Below are positions 16,812-63,949 of a stretch of DNA of 64,000 nt, piece after piece. The translations under genes were made by a program, and so were the position numbers. Location: the NCBI RefSeq assembly GCF_003716325.1, contig NZ_RDSR01000010.1, positions 1 to 64,000 on the forward strand, read 5' to 3'. The notes beneath the pieces are model-generated. The model ran no database searches, was not told where the DNA came from, and was given only the letters and a program-made list of their open reading frames with translations. Source of the stretch: Cryobacterium tepidiphilum. Its GTDB lineage: Bacteria; Actinomycetota; Actinomycetes; Actinomycetales; Microbacteriaceae. Position 1 is the stretch's first letter, and the number at the start of each line of letters is the position of its first letter.

Positions 16812-18089
16812 CTAGTCGGTGCCGCGCACCCGCCCGATCCAGGTCATCACGTGGTAGATGACGATCGCCGCCACGGTGCCGAGCGCGATGCCGTTGAAGG
16901 TGAGGGTCCCGGCGCTGAACGTGTAGTCCGCGATGCCGACGATGAGTGCGGTGGCGGCGGTGAACTGGTTCGCCGGCTTGGAGAAGTCCACGCGGTTGTC
17001 CAGCCAGATCTTCACGCCGATGATGCCGATGAGGCCGTAGAGCGCGGTGGTGACGCCGCCGAGCACTCCCGCGGGGATGGTGTTGATGACCGCGCCAACC
17101 TTGGGGGAGAGGCCGAGCAGGATCGCCACGATGCCGGCGACCCAATAGGCGGCGGTCGAGTAGATGCGCGTCGCCGCCATGACGCCGATGTTCTCGCCGT
17201 ACGTCGTGGTGCCCGACCCGCCGCCGAAGCCGGCCAGCATGGTGGCCAGTCCGTCGGAGAACAGCGCGGCGCCCGTGCGGCGGTTCACCGACTGGTCCTC
17301 GACCATCTGGGCGACGCCGCGGATGTGCCCCACGTTCTCGGCGATGAGCACGAGCACGACGGGCAGGAACGCCGGGAGCACGCCCCAGGCATCCGGGTGC
17401 TCGAACGGGTTGACCGGACCGGTGAAGGGCGGCAGGCCCAGCCAGGGGGCGTCGGCGACGGCCCCGAAGTCGACCTCGCCGAGCAGGACCGCCGCGAGGT
17501 AGCCGACCAGCACGCCGAGGAAGATCGACATGCGCCCGAGGATGCCGGTGAACAGGACGGTGCAGAGGATGACGGCTGCGAGCGTGATGAGGGCGCTCAC
17601 CGGGGCGAGGGCGAAGTTGGCCTTCGCGACCGGGGCGAGGTTCAGGCCGATGAGGGCGACGATGGCGCCGGAAACGACCGGCGGCATCAGCGCGTCGATC
17701 CACCGGGTGCCGCTCAGCTGAACGACCACACCGATGATCGCCAGGAGAAGGCCGACGATGAGGATTCCGAACAGCGCGCTGCCCATGCCGGCCGTGGCGG
17801 TCGCGGCCGTGATCGGGGCGATGAAGGCGAACGACGACCCCAGGTAGCTGGGCAGGGTGTTGCGGGTGATCAGGAGGAACAACAGCGTTCCAACGCCGGA
17901 GAACAACAGCGTCGTGCTGGGCGGGAAATCGGTCAGAAGCGGCACCAGGAACGTCGCCCCGAACATGGCGACCACGTGCTGCGCTCCGATGCCGACGGTA
18001 CGCGGCCAAGTCAGCCGCTCGGCGGGCCCGACGACCTCCCGCGCCGACACGCTCTTCCCGTCACCGTGCAGTTTCCATGGCAGTGCCAT
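16812..18089 (-). CDS. NCS2 family uracil/xanthine permease
   Basis: A 425-residue nucleobase:cation symporter of the UraA/UapA group with about 14 membrane segments. The family's proline-containing central motif region and the helix-10 type segment FGGGSGTTTYGENIGVMAAT are clear; the latter is the nucleobase-binding signature. The start ATG 18089 has GAGGGAA just upstream. Uracil is the more likely substrate because of the resemblance to UraA, but xanthine cannot be excluded. No pyrimidine salvage gene is adjacent. Confidence 0.9.
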   Translation of the reverse strand: MALPWKLHGDGKSVSAREVVGPAERLTWPRTVGIGAQHVVAMFGATFLVPLLTDFPPSTTLLFSGVGTLLFLLITRNTLPSYLGSSFAFIAPITAATATAGMGSALFGILIVGLLLAIIGVVVQLSGTRWIDALMPPVVSGAIVALIGLNLAPVAKANFALAPVSALITLAAVILCTVLFTGILGRMSIFLGVLVGYLAAVLLGEVDFGAVADAPWLGLPPFTGPVNPFEHPDAWGVLPAFLPVVLVLIAENVGHIRGVAQMVEDQSVNRRTGAALFSDGLATMLAGFGGGSGTTTYGENIGVMAATRIYSTAAYWVAGIVAILLGLSPKVGAVINTIPAGVLGGVTTALYGLIGIIGVKIWLDNRVDFSKPANQFTAATALIVGIADYTFSAGTLTFNGIALGTVAAIVIYHVMTWIGRVRGTD

Positions 18090-18194: not shown

Positions 18195-19745
18195 GTGAGC
18201 CGATTCGCTGTGAGTGCCGAGCACGCCAGCGAGCTCGAAGTGCAGCTCGATTCCGGCATTATCCGAGGCGTCGCCGAGCGCGGCATCCGGGCCTGGCGCG
18301 GAATCCCCTACGCGGGCCCGGCGGGCGGCGAGAACCGGTTCCGGGCGCCCACACCGGTCGTGCCGTGGCAGGGCGTTCGCGATTGCACGACCTGGGGTCC
18401 CGTCGCCACGCAGCTGCACAAGGGGCAGTTCGTGGGCGCGCCCCCGCACATCCCGCAGGGCGAGGACTGCCTCAACCTCAACGTGCTCGCGCCCGACGAG
18501 CCGCGCGACCCGGACGTGCTGCGCCCGGTGATGGTCTTCATCCACGGCGGCGGCTACAGCGTCGGCTCGTCGCGGGAGGAGCCCCGGCGCGGTGAGGCGC
18601 TGGTCCGGTCCGGCGGCGTCGTCTACGTGAGCCTGAACTACCGGCTCGGCGGCCTCGGCTATCTCGACTTCACCCGCTACTCCACCCCGGGGCGTCCCTT
18701 CGACAGCAACCTCGGCCTCCGTGACCAGGTGGCGGCGCTTCGCTGGGTGCACGACAACATCCGCTCGTTCGGCGGCGATCCCGACGCCGTGACCCTGTTC
18801 GGGGAGTCCGCCGGCGGCAACGCCGTCACCACCCTGATGACGGTGCCCGCAGCGACCGGCCTCTTCCACCGGGCCATCGCCCAGAGCGCGTCTGCGAACG
18901 CCGTGTACGCGCCCGACATCACCGCCACCTGGGCGCGCGAATTCGTGGAGATCCTCCGCGGGCTCGTCGGCGACACCACAACGGATGCCGCGACACTGCT
19001 GGCGACGGCCAAGCCCGAGACCCTGGCTCTGGCCACCTCCCACCTGACCCTCCTCGCCCCCGACCGAGCGCCCGGCACGACGCCGCTCTGCCCGGTCATC
19101 GACGGGGACTTCCTTCCGGAACGGCCGCTGGACGCGTTCCGGGACGGCCGCGCCGAGCCGATCCCGTTGATCATCGGCACGAATGCCCGCGAGGGCTCGC
19201 TCTTCAGCGGCCGCATGGACATCCTGGCCACGACCCCGGAACGCATCCGGGCGATCTTCGCCAAGACCCCGCCGGAGGCGCGCCTGGCCATCTCCGCCCA
19301 CTACCCGGGGATCCCCGATCGTCCGGCAGCCCTCGACTTCGGCGGGGACTACTCGTTCTGGTACCCGAGCGTCAAGGTCGCCGAGAAGCACTCGCGCCAC
19401 GCCCCGGTCTGGTTCTACCGCTTCGATGCCGCGCCGCCGCTCGTGCGCCGCCTCGGCCTGGACGCCACGCACGGGCTGGAGATGTATCCGTTGTTCGACG
19501 GTCTCAACGGCTGGATGGGCCGGGGGATGACCCTTCTCGGCGGCCGACGGCTGTTCAAGTCGATCGGCGCCCGCATGCGCCGCTGGTGGCTCACCTTCGC
19601 CGAGACCGGGGAACCGGACCCGGAGTGGCCCCGGTACGACGAGAAGACCCGGGCGACTCTCATCATCGACAAGGCCGACCGCGTCGAACTCGACCCGTGG
19701 CGCGCGCGCAGGCGAGCATGGCGGGCGTTCGTCCCGCACATCTGA
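18195..19745 (+). CDS. Type B carboxylesterase/lipase family protein
   Basis: A 516-residue alpha/beta hydrolase of the carboxylesterase type B family. The oxyanion-hole motif HGGGY, the family signature EDCLNLNV and the nucleophile elbow GESAGG (Ser about residue 205) are present; the acid and histidine lie further on, with a His in DATHGLEM. No secretion signal is seen, so it is probably cytosolic and acts on small esters. It starts at GTG 18195, 6 nt after a -10 box. The downstream permease gene has its own promoter. Confidence 0.9.
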   Translation: MSRFAVSAEHASELEVQLDSGIIRGVAERGIRAWRGIPYAGPAGGENRFRAPTPVVPWQGVRDCTTWGPVATQLHKGQFVGAPPHIPQGEDCLNLNVLAPDEPRDPDVLRPVMVFIHGGGYSVGSSREEPRRGEALVRSGGVVYVSLNYRLGGLGYLDFTRYSTPGRPFDSNLGLRDQVAALRWVHDNIRSFGGDPDAVTLFGESAGGNAVTTLMTVPAATGLFHRAIAQSASANAVYAPDITATWAREFVEILRGLVGDTTTDAATLLATAKPETLALATSHLTLLAPDRAPGTTPLCPVIDGDFLPERPLDAFRDGRAEPIPLIIGTNAREGSLFSGRMDILATTPERIRAIFAKTPPEARLAISAHYPGIPDRPAALDFGGDYSFWYPSVKVAEKHSRHAPVWFYRFDAAPPLVRRLGLDATHGLEMYPLFDGLNGWMGRGMTLLGGRRLFKSIGARMRRWWLTFAETGEPDPEWPRYDEKTRATLIIDKADRVELDPWRARRRAWRAFVPHI

Positions 19746-19755
19746 GCAGGTCCCG

Positions 19756-19761
19756 TAGACT
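19756..19761 (+). promoter_or_regulatory. -10 box of the AzgA-like permease gene
   Basis: TAGACT; a transcript starting near 19768 would have a leader of about 38 nt containing GGGAGA before the ATT at 19806. Confidence 0.45.
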
Positions 19762-19805
19762 ATCTCCTTGGTAATCCGCTGAATTTCGCGCCCCGGGAGA
19801 ACATC

Positions 19806-21284
19806 ATTTCCAGCACTCAGACGCCTGCGTCGGCTCCGTCCACCGATTCCGGCACCGCCGGAAAGGTCGACCGCTTCTTCGAGATCACCCGTCGCGGGTC
19901 GACGTGGGGGCGTGAGGTGCGCGGCGGCCTGGTGACGTTCGTCACCATGGCCTACATCGTCATCCTGAACCCGCTGATCCTCGGCGGGTTCAGCGCCGAC
20001 CAGGCCGCCGTCGACGTCACCGGAGGATGGCTCCCCAACGCGCAGGTGGCCGCGGTCACGGCGCTCACCGCCGGCGTCATGACCATCCTGTTCGGGCTCG
20101 TCGCCCGCCTGCCCTTCGGGTTCGCCGCGGGCCTCGGCATCAACTCCTTCCTCGCCGCGAGCGTCGTCGGCGAACTGACCTGGGCCGAGGCGATGGGGCT
20201 CGTCGTCATCAACGGCCTCATCATCGTGCTGCTGTCCTCGACGGGCCTCCGCGCCATGATCTTCACCGCGGTGCCGCAGCAGCTGAAGCTCGCGATCACC
20301 GTGGGAATCGGCCTGTTCATCGCGTTCATCGGCCTCGTCGACTCCGGTTTCGTGCGTTCCAGCGGCCACCCCTCACCGCCCGTGCAGCTGGGCGAAAACG
20401 GATCCGTCGTGAGCCTGCCGACCACCGTCTTCGTGATCGGGCTCATCCTCATCGGCATCCTCATGGCCCGCCGGGTCAAGGCGGCACTCCTGATCGGCAT
20501 CGTGGCGACCACGATCATCGCCGTCATCCTCGAGGCGATCTTCAAGGTCGGCCCCTCGCTCGGCACCAATCCGAACGGCTGGAACCTGAACGCACCCGTG
20601 CTGCCGTCGTCGATCGTCGCCGTGCCCGACCTCAGCCTGCTGGGCCAGGTCAGCTTCGGCGCCTTCGACCGCATCGGCGTCCTCGCTGCGGTGATGCTCA
20701 TCTTCACCCTCGTCTTCACCAACTTCTTCGACGCAATGGGCACCATGACGGGCCTCGCGAACGAGGCCGGCCTCACCGACCAGAACGGCAACTTCCCGCG
20801 GCTGAAGTCGGCGCTGATCGTCGAGGGTGTCGGCGCCGTCGCCGGCGGCGCGGCATCCGCGTCGTCGAACACCGTCTTCATCGAGTCCGGCGCCGGCATC
20901 GGCGAAGGGGCGCGAACGGGCCTGGCCAACATGGTCACGGGTGTGCTGTTCCTGGCCGCCATGTTCTTCACACCGCTGACGCAGATCGTCCCGCTCGAGG
21001 TGGCCGGCGCGGCCCTCGTGATCGTGGGTGCGCTCATGGTCACCCAGATCCGCTACATCGACTTCGGCGACTTCTCCGTCGTGCTCCCGGTGTTCCTGAC
21101 GATCCTGATCATGCCGCTCACCTACTCCATCGCGAACGGCATCGGCGCGGGCTTCATCAGCTGGGTGCTGGTGCGGTCGTTCTCGGGCCGCGCGAAAGAA
21201 GTCAGTCCGCTGCTCTGGATCGTCGCCGTGGGCTTCCTGGTCTACTTCGTGCGCGGCCCCGTCCAGGCCCTGCTGGGCGGCTGA
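19806..21284 (+). CDS. NCS2 family adenine/guanine/hypoxanthine permease (AzgA-like), apparently with an ATT start
   Basis: About 492 residues with some 13-14 membrane helices. AzgA/PbuG-type hallmarks are visible: FGFAAGLGINSFLA, TNFFDAMGTMTG and ASSNTVFIESGAGIGEGARTG. The family N-terminus (VDRFFEITRRGSTWGREVRGG) is encoded in frame well upstream of the first GTG (19917). Between that GTG and the in-frame stop at 19743-19745 there is no ATG, GTG or TTG. ATT 19806, 5 nt after GGGAGA, is the best-placed start; ATC 19803 and CTG 19779 are alternatives. The protein imports purine bases by proton symport. Confidence 0.88.
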   Translation: MSSTQTPASAPSTDSGTAGKVDRFFEITRRGSTWGREVRGGLVTFVTMAYIVILNPLILGGFSADQAAVDVTGGWLPNAQVAAVTALTAGVMTILFGLVARLPFGFAAGLGINSFLAASVVGELTWAEAMGLVVINGLIIVLLSSTGLRAMIFTAVPQQLKLAITVGIGLFIAFIGLVDSGFVRSSGHPSPPVQLGENGSVVSLPTTVFVIGLILIGILMARRVKAALLIGIVATTIIAVILEAIFKVGPSLGTNPNGWNLNAPVLPSSIVAVPDLSLLGQVSFGAFDRIGVLAAVMLIFTLVFTNFFDAMGTMTGLANEAGLTDQNGNFPRLKSALIVEGVGAVAGGAASASSNTVFIESGAGIGEGARTGLANMVTGVLFLAAMFFTPLTQIVPLEVAGAALVIVGALMVTQIRYIDFGDFSVVLPVFLTILIMPLTYSIANGIGAGFISWVLVRSFSGRAKEVSPLLWIVAVGFLVYFVRGPVQALLGG

Positions 21285-35242: not shown

Positions 35243-35331
35243 CTTGAGGTTGCCGTCGAACGGCCGCGGATAAAGAGAGTTCAGGCATCCGGCCCCGGAC
35301 ACCGCGCAGTGAGAGAAAGGGGATCCCATCT

Positions 35332-35601
35332 ATGGCACTCGAAGCAAATGCTAAGAAGGCGATCATCGAAGAGTACGCTACCCACCCAGGTGACACCGGA
35401 TCCCCCGAGGTCCAGATCGCGATGCTTTCGCAGCGCATCAAGGACCTCACCGAGCACCTCAAGATGCACAAGCACGACCACCACTCGCGTCGTGGACTGC
35501 TGCTTCTGGTGGGCCAGCGTCGCCGTCTGCTCGGCTACCTCGCCGACGTCGACATCAACCGCTACCGTGCGCTCATCGAGCGCCTGGGGCTGCGTCGCTA
35601 G
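35332..35601 (+). CDS. rpsO: 30S ribosomal protein S15
   Basis: An 89-residue ribosomal protein that binds the central domain of 16S rRNA early in 30S assembly. The length and the motifs [35 protein letters not shown] and the end [12 protein letters not shown] are standard. AAAGGGGAT precedes ATG 35332. It is usually next to pnp in actinobacteria; here pnp is 5.7 kb away. Confidence 0.97.
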
Positions 35602-36551: not shown

Positions 36552-37106
36552 CTATGCGGTCTGGCCCCGGTGCGGTCCCTCGGCGAACTCCTCGACCACC
36601 TTCTCGTTGAAGGCCGGGAGGTCGTCGGGGGTGCGACTTGTCACCAGGCCCTGGTCGACCACCACCTGCTCGTCGACCCAGGTCGCGCCGGCGTTCTTGA
36701 GGTCGGTGGTGAGGCTCGGGTACGACGTGAGGGTCCGGCCATCCGCGACGCCCGCCTCGACCAGCATCCACGGGGCGTGGCAGATCGCGCCCACGGGCTT
36801 GTGCGCTTCGAAGAACGCCTTCGTGAACGCGACGGCGTCCGTGTCCATGCGCAGGTGGTCGGCGTTGACGACGCCGCCGGGCAGCACGAGGGCGTCGAAG
36901 TCCGCCGCCGAGGCGCCCGAGACCGCCAGGTCGACGTCCTGCGCGTACCCGTTCTTGCCGGTCACCTGGCCGGAGGCCGGTGACACGAGAACGGCGGTCG
37001 CACCGGCATCCGTCACCGCCTGCCAGGGGCTCGTGAACTCGCTGTCCTCGAAGCCGTTCGTGAGCAGGAACGCCACGCGCTTGCCGGAGAGATCGTTGTT
37101 CGCCAT
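36552..37106 (-). CDS. DJ-1/PfpI family protein (type 1 glutamine amidotransferase domain)
   Basis: A 184-residue PfpI/YhbO-like protein. The nucleophile elbow GAICHAPW carries the catalytic Cys-His pair, and ALVLPGGVVNADHLR precedes it. The family includes general stress proteins with proposed deglycase or chaperone activity. AAAGGAG upstream of ATG 37106 decides the start. It lies next to a fructosamine kinase gene, a possible functional link through glycation repair. Confidence 0.92.
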   Translation of the reverse strand: MANNDLSGKRVAFLLTNGFEDSEFTSPWQAVTDAGATAVLVSPASGQVTGKNGYAQDVDLAVSGASAADFDALVLPGGVVNADHLRMDTDAVAFTKAFFEAHKPVGAICHAPWMLVEAGVADGRTLTSYPSLTTDLKNAGATWVDEQVVVDQGLVTSRTPDDLPAFNEKVVEEFAEGPHRGQTA

Positions 37107-59182: not shown

Positions 59183-62011
59183 ATGGCTACGAGCACCAAG
59201 TCGACCGGCCGTGCTTCGGGCGCGTCGGCACGCGGCACCAGCACGCGGAAGCCTGCCGCCAAGAGCACCGCGAAGACGGCCACCCAGAAGACCGTCAAGT
59301 TCCCCGAGAGCGAGCCGAAGCCCGCGCTGTTCGTGCGCGCCTGGATGGGGCTCGCGCACCTCACCGGCGGTGCCGCCCGGGCGCTCGGCCCCGAAGAGCT
59401 CTCGAAGGAGGACCGGCGCGACGGGCTGCCGTTCTTTCTCGTGCTGCTGGCGATCGCCGGCGCCGTGATCGAATGGTTCCTGATCAACAACCCCGTCGCG
59501 CAGACCCTCGACGCCTGGACCTTCGGCGGCCTGTTCGGCCGCGTCGCCTTCGCGCTCCCGGTCATCATGCTCCTCTTCGCCGTGTGGCTGTTCCGCCGGC
59601 CGAGCTCCGTGCACGACAACGGCCGCATCGGCATCGGGCTCGCCCTGCTGCTGGTGACGGTCTCCGGCCTCTGCCACATCTTCGGCGGCCAGCCCGCACC
59701 GAGCGAGGGCATGGAGGTGCTCGCGGTCGCGGGAGGCGTCATCGGCTGGATGATCGCGGCGCCGCTCCTGGCGCTCATCACGACCATCGGCGCATCCATC
59801 GTCGTTATCGTGCTGCTGATCCTCAGCCTGTTCATCATCACCAAGACCCCGCCGAACAAGGTGGGGGAGCGGCTGCGGGAGTTGTACGCGTGGTTGTTCG
59901 GCGCACCGATGCCGGACCCGGAGGAACGGCAGGCGGCCAAGGAGGCGAAGCAGTCGAAGACCAGGCAGCTGGAACTCGACGGCCTCGAAGACGATGACGA
60001 CCAGGCCGACACCGGCACGCTCCCGTGGTGGCGACGCAACCCCGGCAAGCGTGAGGAAGACCCCGACTTCCACGCCGGGGAGTCAGCCGACCCGCTCGCC
60101 GACCTCCTCGGCTTCGGCGCAGACACCGACGACGCGCCCTCCGCCGCGCACGGCGCCTTCGACACGCCCCTCGGCACCGCCGCTCCGGCGAGCCAGGACG
60201 ACTACGGCACCGAGGTGCTCGGCGACCTGCGCCGCGCCGAGGAAGCCGTCAAGCGCTTCACCGGCGAGATCCCGCTGCCCGGCGGCGCCCGGGCGCAGGC
60301 ATCAGCGGATGCCGCGGGCCCGGTGGACGGCTCCGACGACGACTTCGGCGGCAGCACCATCGAGATGCCGAGCGCAGCGCAGCCCACGGCGCCCTACGTA
60401 CTCCCCGCCGCCTCCACCCTCACGGCCGGCCCGCCGGCCAAGGCCCGTTCGGCCGCCAACGACGAGGTCGTCCGCGCCATCACCGAGGTGCTCCGCCAGT
60501 TCAACGTGGATGCCAAGGTCACCGGCTTCTCCCGCGGGCCGACCGTCACGCAGTACGAGATCGAGCTGGGCCCCGGAGTCAAGGTCGAGCGGGTCACGGC
60601 GCTCAGCAAGAACCTCTCCTACGCGGTCGCTTCCAACGAGGTGCGCATTCTCTCGCCCATCCCCGGCAAGAGCGCGATCGGCATCGAGATCCCCAACTCC
60701 GACCGCGAGATCGTGACCCTCGGCGACGTGCTCCGCTCCGGCGCGGCGACGAGCAGCACGCACCCGATGACCATCGGCGTCGGCAAGGACGTCGGCGGCG
60801 GATACGTCGTGGCCAACCTCGCGAAGATGCCCCACCTGCTCGTTGCCGGGTCCACCGGCTCGGGCAAGTCGAGCTTCGTCAACTCCATGATCACGAGCCT
60901 GCTCATGCGGGCGAAGCCGAGCGACGTGCGCATGGTTCTGATCGACCCCAAGCGCGTCGAGCTCGCCCCGTACGCCGGTGTGCCGCACCTGATCACCCCC
61001 ATCATCACGAACCCCAAGAAGGCGGCCGAAGCGCTGCAGTGGGTCGTGAAGGAGATGGACATGCGCTACGACGACCTGGCCAGCTTCGGGTTCCGTCACA
61101 TCGACGACTTCAACAAGGCCGTCACGAACGACGAGATCGTGCTCCCCGCGGGCAGCGAGCGCAAGCTCAAGCCCTACCCGTACCTGCTCGTCGTCGTCGA
61201 CGAGCTCGCCGACCTGATGATGGTCGCACCGCGCGACGTCGAGGACTCGATCGTTCGCATCACCCAGCTGGCCCGCGCCTCCGGCATCCACCTGGTGCTG
61301 GCCACGCAGCGCCCGAGCGTCGACGTGGTCACCGGCCTGATCAAGGCCAACGTGCCCTCCCGCCTCGCCTTCGCCGTCACGAGCGTCACCGACTCCCGGG
61401 TGATCCTCGACCAGCCCGGCGCCGACAAGCTCATCGGCCAGGGCGACGCGCTCTTCCTGCCCATGGGCGCCTCCAAGGCGCTGCGGGTGCAGGGCGCGTG
61501 GGTGAACGAGGCCGAGATCGAGAAGGTGGTGGGGCACGTCACCAGGCAGGCCCGGCCCGAGTACCGACCGGATGTCGCGATGGAGGCCCCGAAGAAGGAG
61601 ATCGACTCCGACATCGGCGACGACCTCGAGGTGCTGCTCGCCGCGGCCGAACTCGTGGTCTCCACCCAGTTCGGCTCAACCTCGATGCTGCAGCGCAAGC
61701 TGCGGGTCGGCTTCGCCAAGGCCGGCCGGCTCATGGACCTCCTGGAATCCCGCGAGATCGTCGGCCCGTCGGAGGGCTCCAAGGCGCGCGACGTTCTCGT
61801 CACGGCGGAGCAGCTCCCGGCGGTGCTCGCGAAACTGCGCGGCTCCGACGCCGAACAGGCTGCCTACCAGGCGGCACCCCAGCCCGGCAGCGACACGCAC
61901 TCCGTCGATCCCCGCTACGCCGACGACCCGGTCGCCCAGATGACGCGGGGCTATCCTGAGGTGGAGGCGGATTCGGACGAAGACGCCTGGCAGCTGACCG
62001 ACCGGGACTAG
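59183..62011 (+). CDS. ftsK: DNA translocase FtsK
   Basis: A 942-residue septal DNA pump that clears chromosomes during division. A basic N-terminal tail (about 1-40), four membrane helices (about 75-220), an acidic low-complexity linker (about 250-410), the RecA-like motor with Walker [10 protein letters not shown] (about 554-562) and Walker [14 protein letters not shown] (about 668), and a C-terminal gamma winged-helix domain (about 820-885) that reads chromosome polarity sequences. pgsA follows after 10 nt. Confidence 0.96.
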
Positions 62012-63923: not shown

Positions 63924-63949
63924 TGCGCGCTCGACACGCCGTGTAACTC

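Follow-up and report, generated by a model that had tools for sequence, protein, structure and literature searches.

Where does translation begin when the conserved coding sequence of a gene extends upstream of every canonical start codon in its frame? A permease gene of Cryobacterium tepidiphilum raises this question. It lies in the first 64,000 nucleotides of contig NZ_RDSR01000010.1, the whole stretch of DNA analyzed here and hereafter called the window. The original prediction, made from the letters of the window, held that this AzgA-like permease seems to start at ATT, and we followed it up by comparison with related genomes. The features on which the argument turns are as follows.

19743-19745, + strand: in-frame stop TGA, which also ends the preceding esterase ORF (18195-19745)
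19756-19761, + strand: TAGACT, a -10-like element
19795-19799, + strand: putative Shine-Dalgarno sequence GGGAG, with the core GGAG at 19796-19799, 6 nt before ATT
19806-19808, + strand: ATT, proposed start codon of the permease
19806-21284, + strand: AzgA-type purine permease, 492 aa from ATT, stop codon included in the coordinates
19866-19898, + strand: conserved N-terminal VDRFFEITRRG
19917-19919, + strand: GTG, first canonical in-frame codon, judged not to be the start

An AzgA-type permease with a conserved N terminus upstream of any canonical codon

Direct reading of the sequence showed that the permease frame is closed on its 5′ side by TGA 19743-19745 and stays open to TGA 21282-21284. 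Between the stop at 19743 and GTG 19917, we found no in-frame ATG, GTG or TTG, as originally described. The VDRFFEITRRG segment indeed lies upstream of that GTG, and GGGAGA is found 5 nt before ATT 19806, with its GGAG core ending 6 nt before it.

The family assignment was borne out as well. The protein matched the Pfam family Xan_ur_permease (PF00860) at 102.9 bits, above the cut-off of 27, which places it in this sequence family. A profile built from ten permease sequences of the genus gave three matches among solved sequences, all of them the adenine/guanine permeases AZG2 and AZG1 (best two E values, 3.5e-57 for AZG2 and 7.1e-55 for AZG1), and a search of NCBIfam with the permease returned no match. 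On these matches the AzgA-type assignment holds, "AzgA" being what we take to be the name of the bacterial branch of the family, and family membership suggests adenine, guanine or hypoxanthine as the substrate.

Two neighbors of the gene were noted. A carboxylesterase-family gene (PF00135, 325 bits; 18195-19745, + strand) adjoins the permease upstream, and its stop codon is the one that closes the permease frame. A second PF00860 member (256.7 bits) lies at 16926-17996 of the window on the - strand, about 1.8 kb from the AzgA-type permease and opposite to it. Orthologues of the permease were present in all 57 Cryobacterium genomes searched, including the window's own; one copy, in genome G043, is split over two contigs. 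Two genomes of the genus also carry a second permease, 54% identical (G035:C55:73947-75356 and G053:C14:178668-180074).

ATT or ATC behind GGAG in every Cryobacterium orthologue

The original prediction had proposed looking for the same codon in orthologues. We fetched and compared all 57, and the outcome was strongly in favor of ATT. With a rule based on protein motifs, the codon matching ATT 19806 was ATT in 53 orthologues and ATC in three, and one gene could not be parsed; a rule based on GGAG together with the residue that follows gave ATT in 54, ATC in three and a canonical codon in none. The species with ATC are L041, L045 and L049. As both rules presupposed an isoleucine codon, and the second also a nearby GGAG, we repeated the analysis without the isoleucine assumption by listing every in-frame codon 4-9 nt after GGAG, starting at the upstream stop (80 codons away at most) and ending about 11 codons ahead of RGG. 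ATT or ATC was found at a spacing of 6 nt in 57/57 orthologues, and no ATG, GTG or TTG stood in frame 4-9 nt behind GGAG in this interval in any of them. The unusual codon and its Shine-Dalgarno sequence are kept together among relatives, and no usable canonical start precedes the conserved coding sequence. A sequencing error hiding an ATG or GTG was rejected, because an error cannot recur in 57 species.

Depending on the orthologue, 19 to 54 codons separate the proposed start codon from DRYFE, and the frame is kept every time. More than half of the orthologues (30/57) contain no in-frame ATG, GTG or TTG from the upstream stop to DRYFE. The other 27 have some canonical codon in this interval at scattered places, none of them 4-9 nt behind GGAG; a looser Shine-Dalgarno pattern flagged an upstream GTG, 27 codons before ATT, in L160 (same contig as L023).

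We considered whether translation could instead begin at GTG 19917 or at the next canonical codon, leaving the upstream conserved stretch untranslated. This GTG is the first canonical codon in frame and is the start given by a mechanical ORF list. Starting there would nevertheless remove DRYFEITxRGSTW, which is strongly conserved as protein across genus and family. Moreover, 14/57 orthologues lack any ATG, GTG or TTG from the upstream stop through RGGxVTF, so that GTG 19917 is not a shared start and the next candidate would fall inside the conserved TMAYIV stretch. The segment between ATT and DRYFE also changes in length by whole codons only, which argues against its being untranslated. Altogether, a downstream start seems extremely improbable.

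A start further upstream or in another frame was the second alternative, whether at a CTG, at the adjacent ATC 19803 or through a frameshift from an overlapping start. An ATC does directly precede ATT in the window, an in-frame CTG is found at 19779, and some orthologues carry upstream in-frame canonical codons. Yet an in-frame stop lies within 30 codons upstream of ATT in 48/57 orthologues. Between -60 and +40, in any frame, the only canonical triplets occurring at one place in at least 10 of the 57 orthologues are TTG at -35 (12) and TTG at -33 (13), and with just these two recurrent triplets we also rejected a conserved upstream ORF or frameshift. As for the adjacent ATC, the T at -2 that it needs is present in just 15/57 orthologues, which makes ATT the shared codon, and this ATC would stand 3 nt from GGAG. 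We regard a start upstream or in another frame as very unlikely. Initiation at ATT 19806 is thereby supported about as well as comparison alone permits.

A probable short leader with a -10-like hexamer

Counted from the proposed start codon, 51/57 orthologues carry the hexamer TA[AG][AG][AC]T in the interval from -60 to -38, whereas five equally sized control windows placed from -200 to -98 contained no copy. Since it is frequent at this position and absent from the controls, it suggests a leadered transcript; with TAGACT at 19756-19761 as the -10 element, this leader would be some 35-40 nt long. Scans of the leader with a generic sigma-70 promoter model and for terminators found neither.

Two other explanations involving the leader were rejected. 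Folding of the leader in three species gave nothing unusual (z of 0.30, -0.31 and 0.88), which leaves no signal for a folded leader hiding the start in the species tried. A search of Rfam found no family above its gathering score, the lone match (E of 0.59) being far below its own, and we discarded a known RNA element as well.

Recurrence of weak starts in other Microbacteriaceae

We then extended the comparison to the family, where 165 genomes had a match and the start was read in 64 loci beyond the genus, from 43 other genera. ATT or ATC starts were found in 10/64 loci and 6/43 of the other genera sampled, and in one genus (g49) in two of three loci. Starts outside Cryobacterium were read by the presence of a Shine-Dalgarno sequence. 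Those of L129, L193, L192, L199 and L102/L107/L214/L218 were settled by hand, as loci in which a canonical codon without a convincing Shine-Dalgarno sequence also lies upstream; L097, L133 and L135 were flagged by the script and kept as canonical, and L227 was unassignable and left out of the tree. In a set of named loci outside Cryobacterium, whose genomes overlap with the 64-locus set, 9/56 were read as ATT or ATC starts. ATT was read in Leifsonia CL147, L. poae, Leifsonia Leaf336, Leifsonia Root4 and Microterricola pindariensis, and ATC in Herbiconiux SYSU D00978, Planctomonas psychrotolerans, P. deserti and an uncultured near relative. Permease loci read from Frigoribacterium, Clavibacter, Curtobacterium, Agromyces and Microbacterium have ATG or GTG. 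The use of ATG or GTG in most other genera indicates that the permease can do without a weak start.

At the level of the order, 108 genomes had a match and 29 loci were read, 6 within the family and 23 outside. A canonical codon was available upstream in 29/29, and no ATT or ATC start was found in the 23 loci read outside Microbacteriaceae.

To place these starts on a phylogeny, we built a quick protein tree of 76 rows comprising 11 of the 57 genus genes, 10 of the 64 family loci and 55 of the 56 named loci (25 weak and 51 canonical rows, with two pairs of identical rows). The weak-start label required 7 changes on this tree, of which starred branches force 5, gains and losses being counted alike. 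None of 500 label shufflings gave as few as 7 changes; with 5 to 7 changes, the weak start thus appears clustered yet recurrent. Both the genus-wide unusual start and its recurrence in other genera go beyond what the single sequence had shown.

The codon kept at the start departs from the isoleucine usage of the gene

The 57 permease genes strongly prefer ATC for isoleucine: after the first codon, ATC accounts for 92.5% and ATT for 6.9% of 2450 isoleucine codons. Among the 32 columns with isoleucine in at least 50 species, ATT prevails in the start column alone. The other 31 hold 132 ATT, 1584 ATC and 10 ATA codons, with at most 21 ATT per column and no ATT majority anywhere. On a quick gene tree, the start column underwent 3 changes, all between ATT and ATC, and internal isoleucine columns 0 to 11. 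The start column stands out for the identity of the codon it retains and not for how often it has changed.

These observations bear on a third alternative, in which translation does start at ATT but the codon is neutral, having arisen by accident and with no effect on regulation. A gene whose product is needed in small amounts can acquire a weak start by drift, both ATT and ATC occur, most other genera have ATG or GTG, and, because internal ATC columns can be equally invariable, the change count alone is no proof of selection. Several points speak against drift. ATG is a single transversion away, and 0/57 species have taken this step. The third base leaves T only for C, in three species, despite the strong internal preference for ATC. 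The trait recurs in several branches. Finally, switches of this kind are described as extremely rare: in 36 genome triplets, one of 61,358 reconstructed AUG starts had switched to AUU (PMC5622118). On balance, a neutral start is unlikely.

The start of infC and a survey for further weak starts

The gene for IF3, infC, was found in 55/57 genomes of the genus. Its start was ATC in all 30 genus loci examined, preceded by GGAG at a distance of 6 nt in 29 of them and of 7 nt in the remaining one. In the genome of the window, infC lies outside the window (G000:C2:85239-85736, L061) and has an ATC start with GGAG 6 nt upstream. By this comparison, the permease and infC of Cryobacterium appear to share one start design.

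We also surveyed 104 kb of the window's own contig for weak starts by comparing alignment spans with stretches of two relatives. The survey yielded 78 gene-like alignments, some of them shadow frames, of which 14 were flagged. Candidates at 74471, 74810, 76293, 91569, 95049, 40097 and 70078 were dismissed as lying under a same-strand alignment of another frame. The candidate at 61998 is 24 nt long and partly under another same-strand frame, those at 63947 and 78851 are short stretches of 27 and 15 nt, and the one at 37008 is supported by a single one of the two relatives and is overlain by an alignment on the opposite strand. The stretch at 35248, which extends as far as an ATG, was set aside too. 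It belongs to a short gene-like frame at 35248-35598 of the window, in which the 28 residues that precede the first ATG are 86-89% alike in both relatives and probably represent a conserved leader. We judged the permease and infC to be the two clear cases in which conserved coding sequence begins 5′ of every canonical codon, each of them also overlain by a lower-scoring opposite-strand alignment. Identity of the upstream stretch in the two relatives was 52% and 59% for the permease and 90-91% for infC.

A model for limited translation of the permease

Taken together, we consider it highly probable that the permease is truly initiated at ATT 19806 and that this codon is a selected weak start, which limits translation and probably does so in an IF3-sensitive manner. 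The position of the start, its conservation and its recurrence emerge from the comparison of genes. Lowered translation and IF3 sensitivity would follow by analogy with infC, sigR and ccpN/cvfC1, and from the discrimination by IF3 against the third base of the codon. Initiation complexes in which the third base of the codon is mismatched are destabilized by IF3. On a short leader of about 35-40 nt, Shine-Dalgarno pairing with GGAG, 6 nt before AUU, would place the ribosome. The initiator tRNA (CAU) would then pair with the AU of AUU and mismatch at the third base, a configuration that IF3 would disfavor, so that translation of the permease would reach a fraction of the rate obtained with AUG. 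Selection would keep the weak start (AUU, occasionally AUC) genus-wide, with equivalents in other branches of Microbacteriaceae. Its presumed purpose would be a low permease level, or synthesis tied to IF3 and ribosome status as for infC. The physiological reason is a matter of speculation: candidates are the avoidance of excess uptake of purines or toxic analogues, and a link between purine supply and ribosome status.

A broader idea, which we put forward tentatively and think rather unlikely, is that purine uptake in Microbacteriaceae is coupled to the translation apparatus, the permease and IF3 forming a small IF3-governed regulon that arose repeatedly at a transporter gene. If so, a drop in IF3 relative to ribosomes would raise permease and IF3 together, through the common design of GGAG, about 6 nt and AUU or AUC.

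Purposeful retention of a non-canonical start is known for only a small number of bacterial genes. The examples described encode a translation factor, a sigma factor, a transcriptional repressor and a small protein with no assigned role; pcnB is a further one. By its conserved start, the permease appears to join this small class as a new gene, and a nutrient transporter with such a start would extend attenuation by start codons to uptake. The ATG, GTG, ATT and ATC alleles at one orthologous gene also form a natural series for tests of selection. In addition, a gene caller restricted to ATG, GTG and TTG cannot place the start of this permease and would shorten or lengthen the protein.

Comparison with known systems

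A literature search of limited coverage, conducted largely by title, found no permease with an AUU start, no ATT start in Cryobacterium and no account of a bacterial azgA start; among the papers listed for noncanonical starts, IF3 and transporters together, none was relevant by its title. The protein family itself, that of the AzgA/AZG purine permeases, is common to the Cryobacterium gene and its relatives; unlike in Cryobacterium, an upstream canonical codon is available in 23/23 of the AzgA/AZG loci outside Microbacteriaceae in the order sample.

Another gene described as having an AUU start that limits translation is pcnB of E. coli, which encodes poly(A) polymerase and is unrelated to the permease. 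The closest parallel in design is infC, which likewise keeps an AUU or AUC start behind GGAG (at 6 nt in 29 of the 30 genus loci) and for which IF3 sensitivity is expected. The permease differs in being a membrane transporter with no autogenous loop, and in using AUU where infC of Cryobacterium uses AUC; infC is reported to start with ATT in E. coli and with ATC in Streptomyces (PMC5472188). In vitro, AUU is reported to be read by the CAU initiator, with the share of full-length product falling as IF3 is raised (PMC10158994).

Streptomyces sigR is similar in being an actinobacterial gene with a genus-wide non-canonical start, and its repression by IF3 is reported as shown (PMC5472188). In contrast, its codon is GTC, it encodes a sigma factor whose ratio to the antisigma factor matters and that study is reported to have seen no use of the GTC start in other genera of actinobacteria (PMC5472188).

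Staphylococcal cvfC1 and ccpN provide the nearest precedent for a conserved weak start with a strong Shine-Dalgarno sequence. Their conserved starts, AUU for cvfC1 and AUA for ccpN, are reported to lower expression in S. aureus, with reporters at about 10% of AUG expression and ccpN at up to 30% in rich medium (PMC13009471). Neither gene encodes a transporter: cvfC1 specifies a small protein of unknown role and ccpN a transcriptional repressor. Their weak starts, which are experimentally backed, come with an extended Shine-Dalgarno sequence (PMC13009471).
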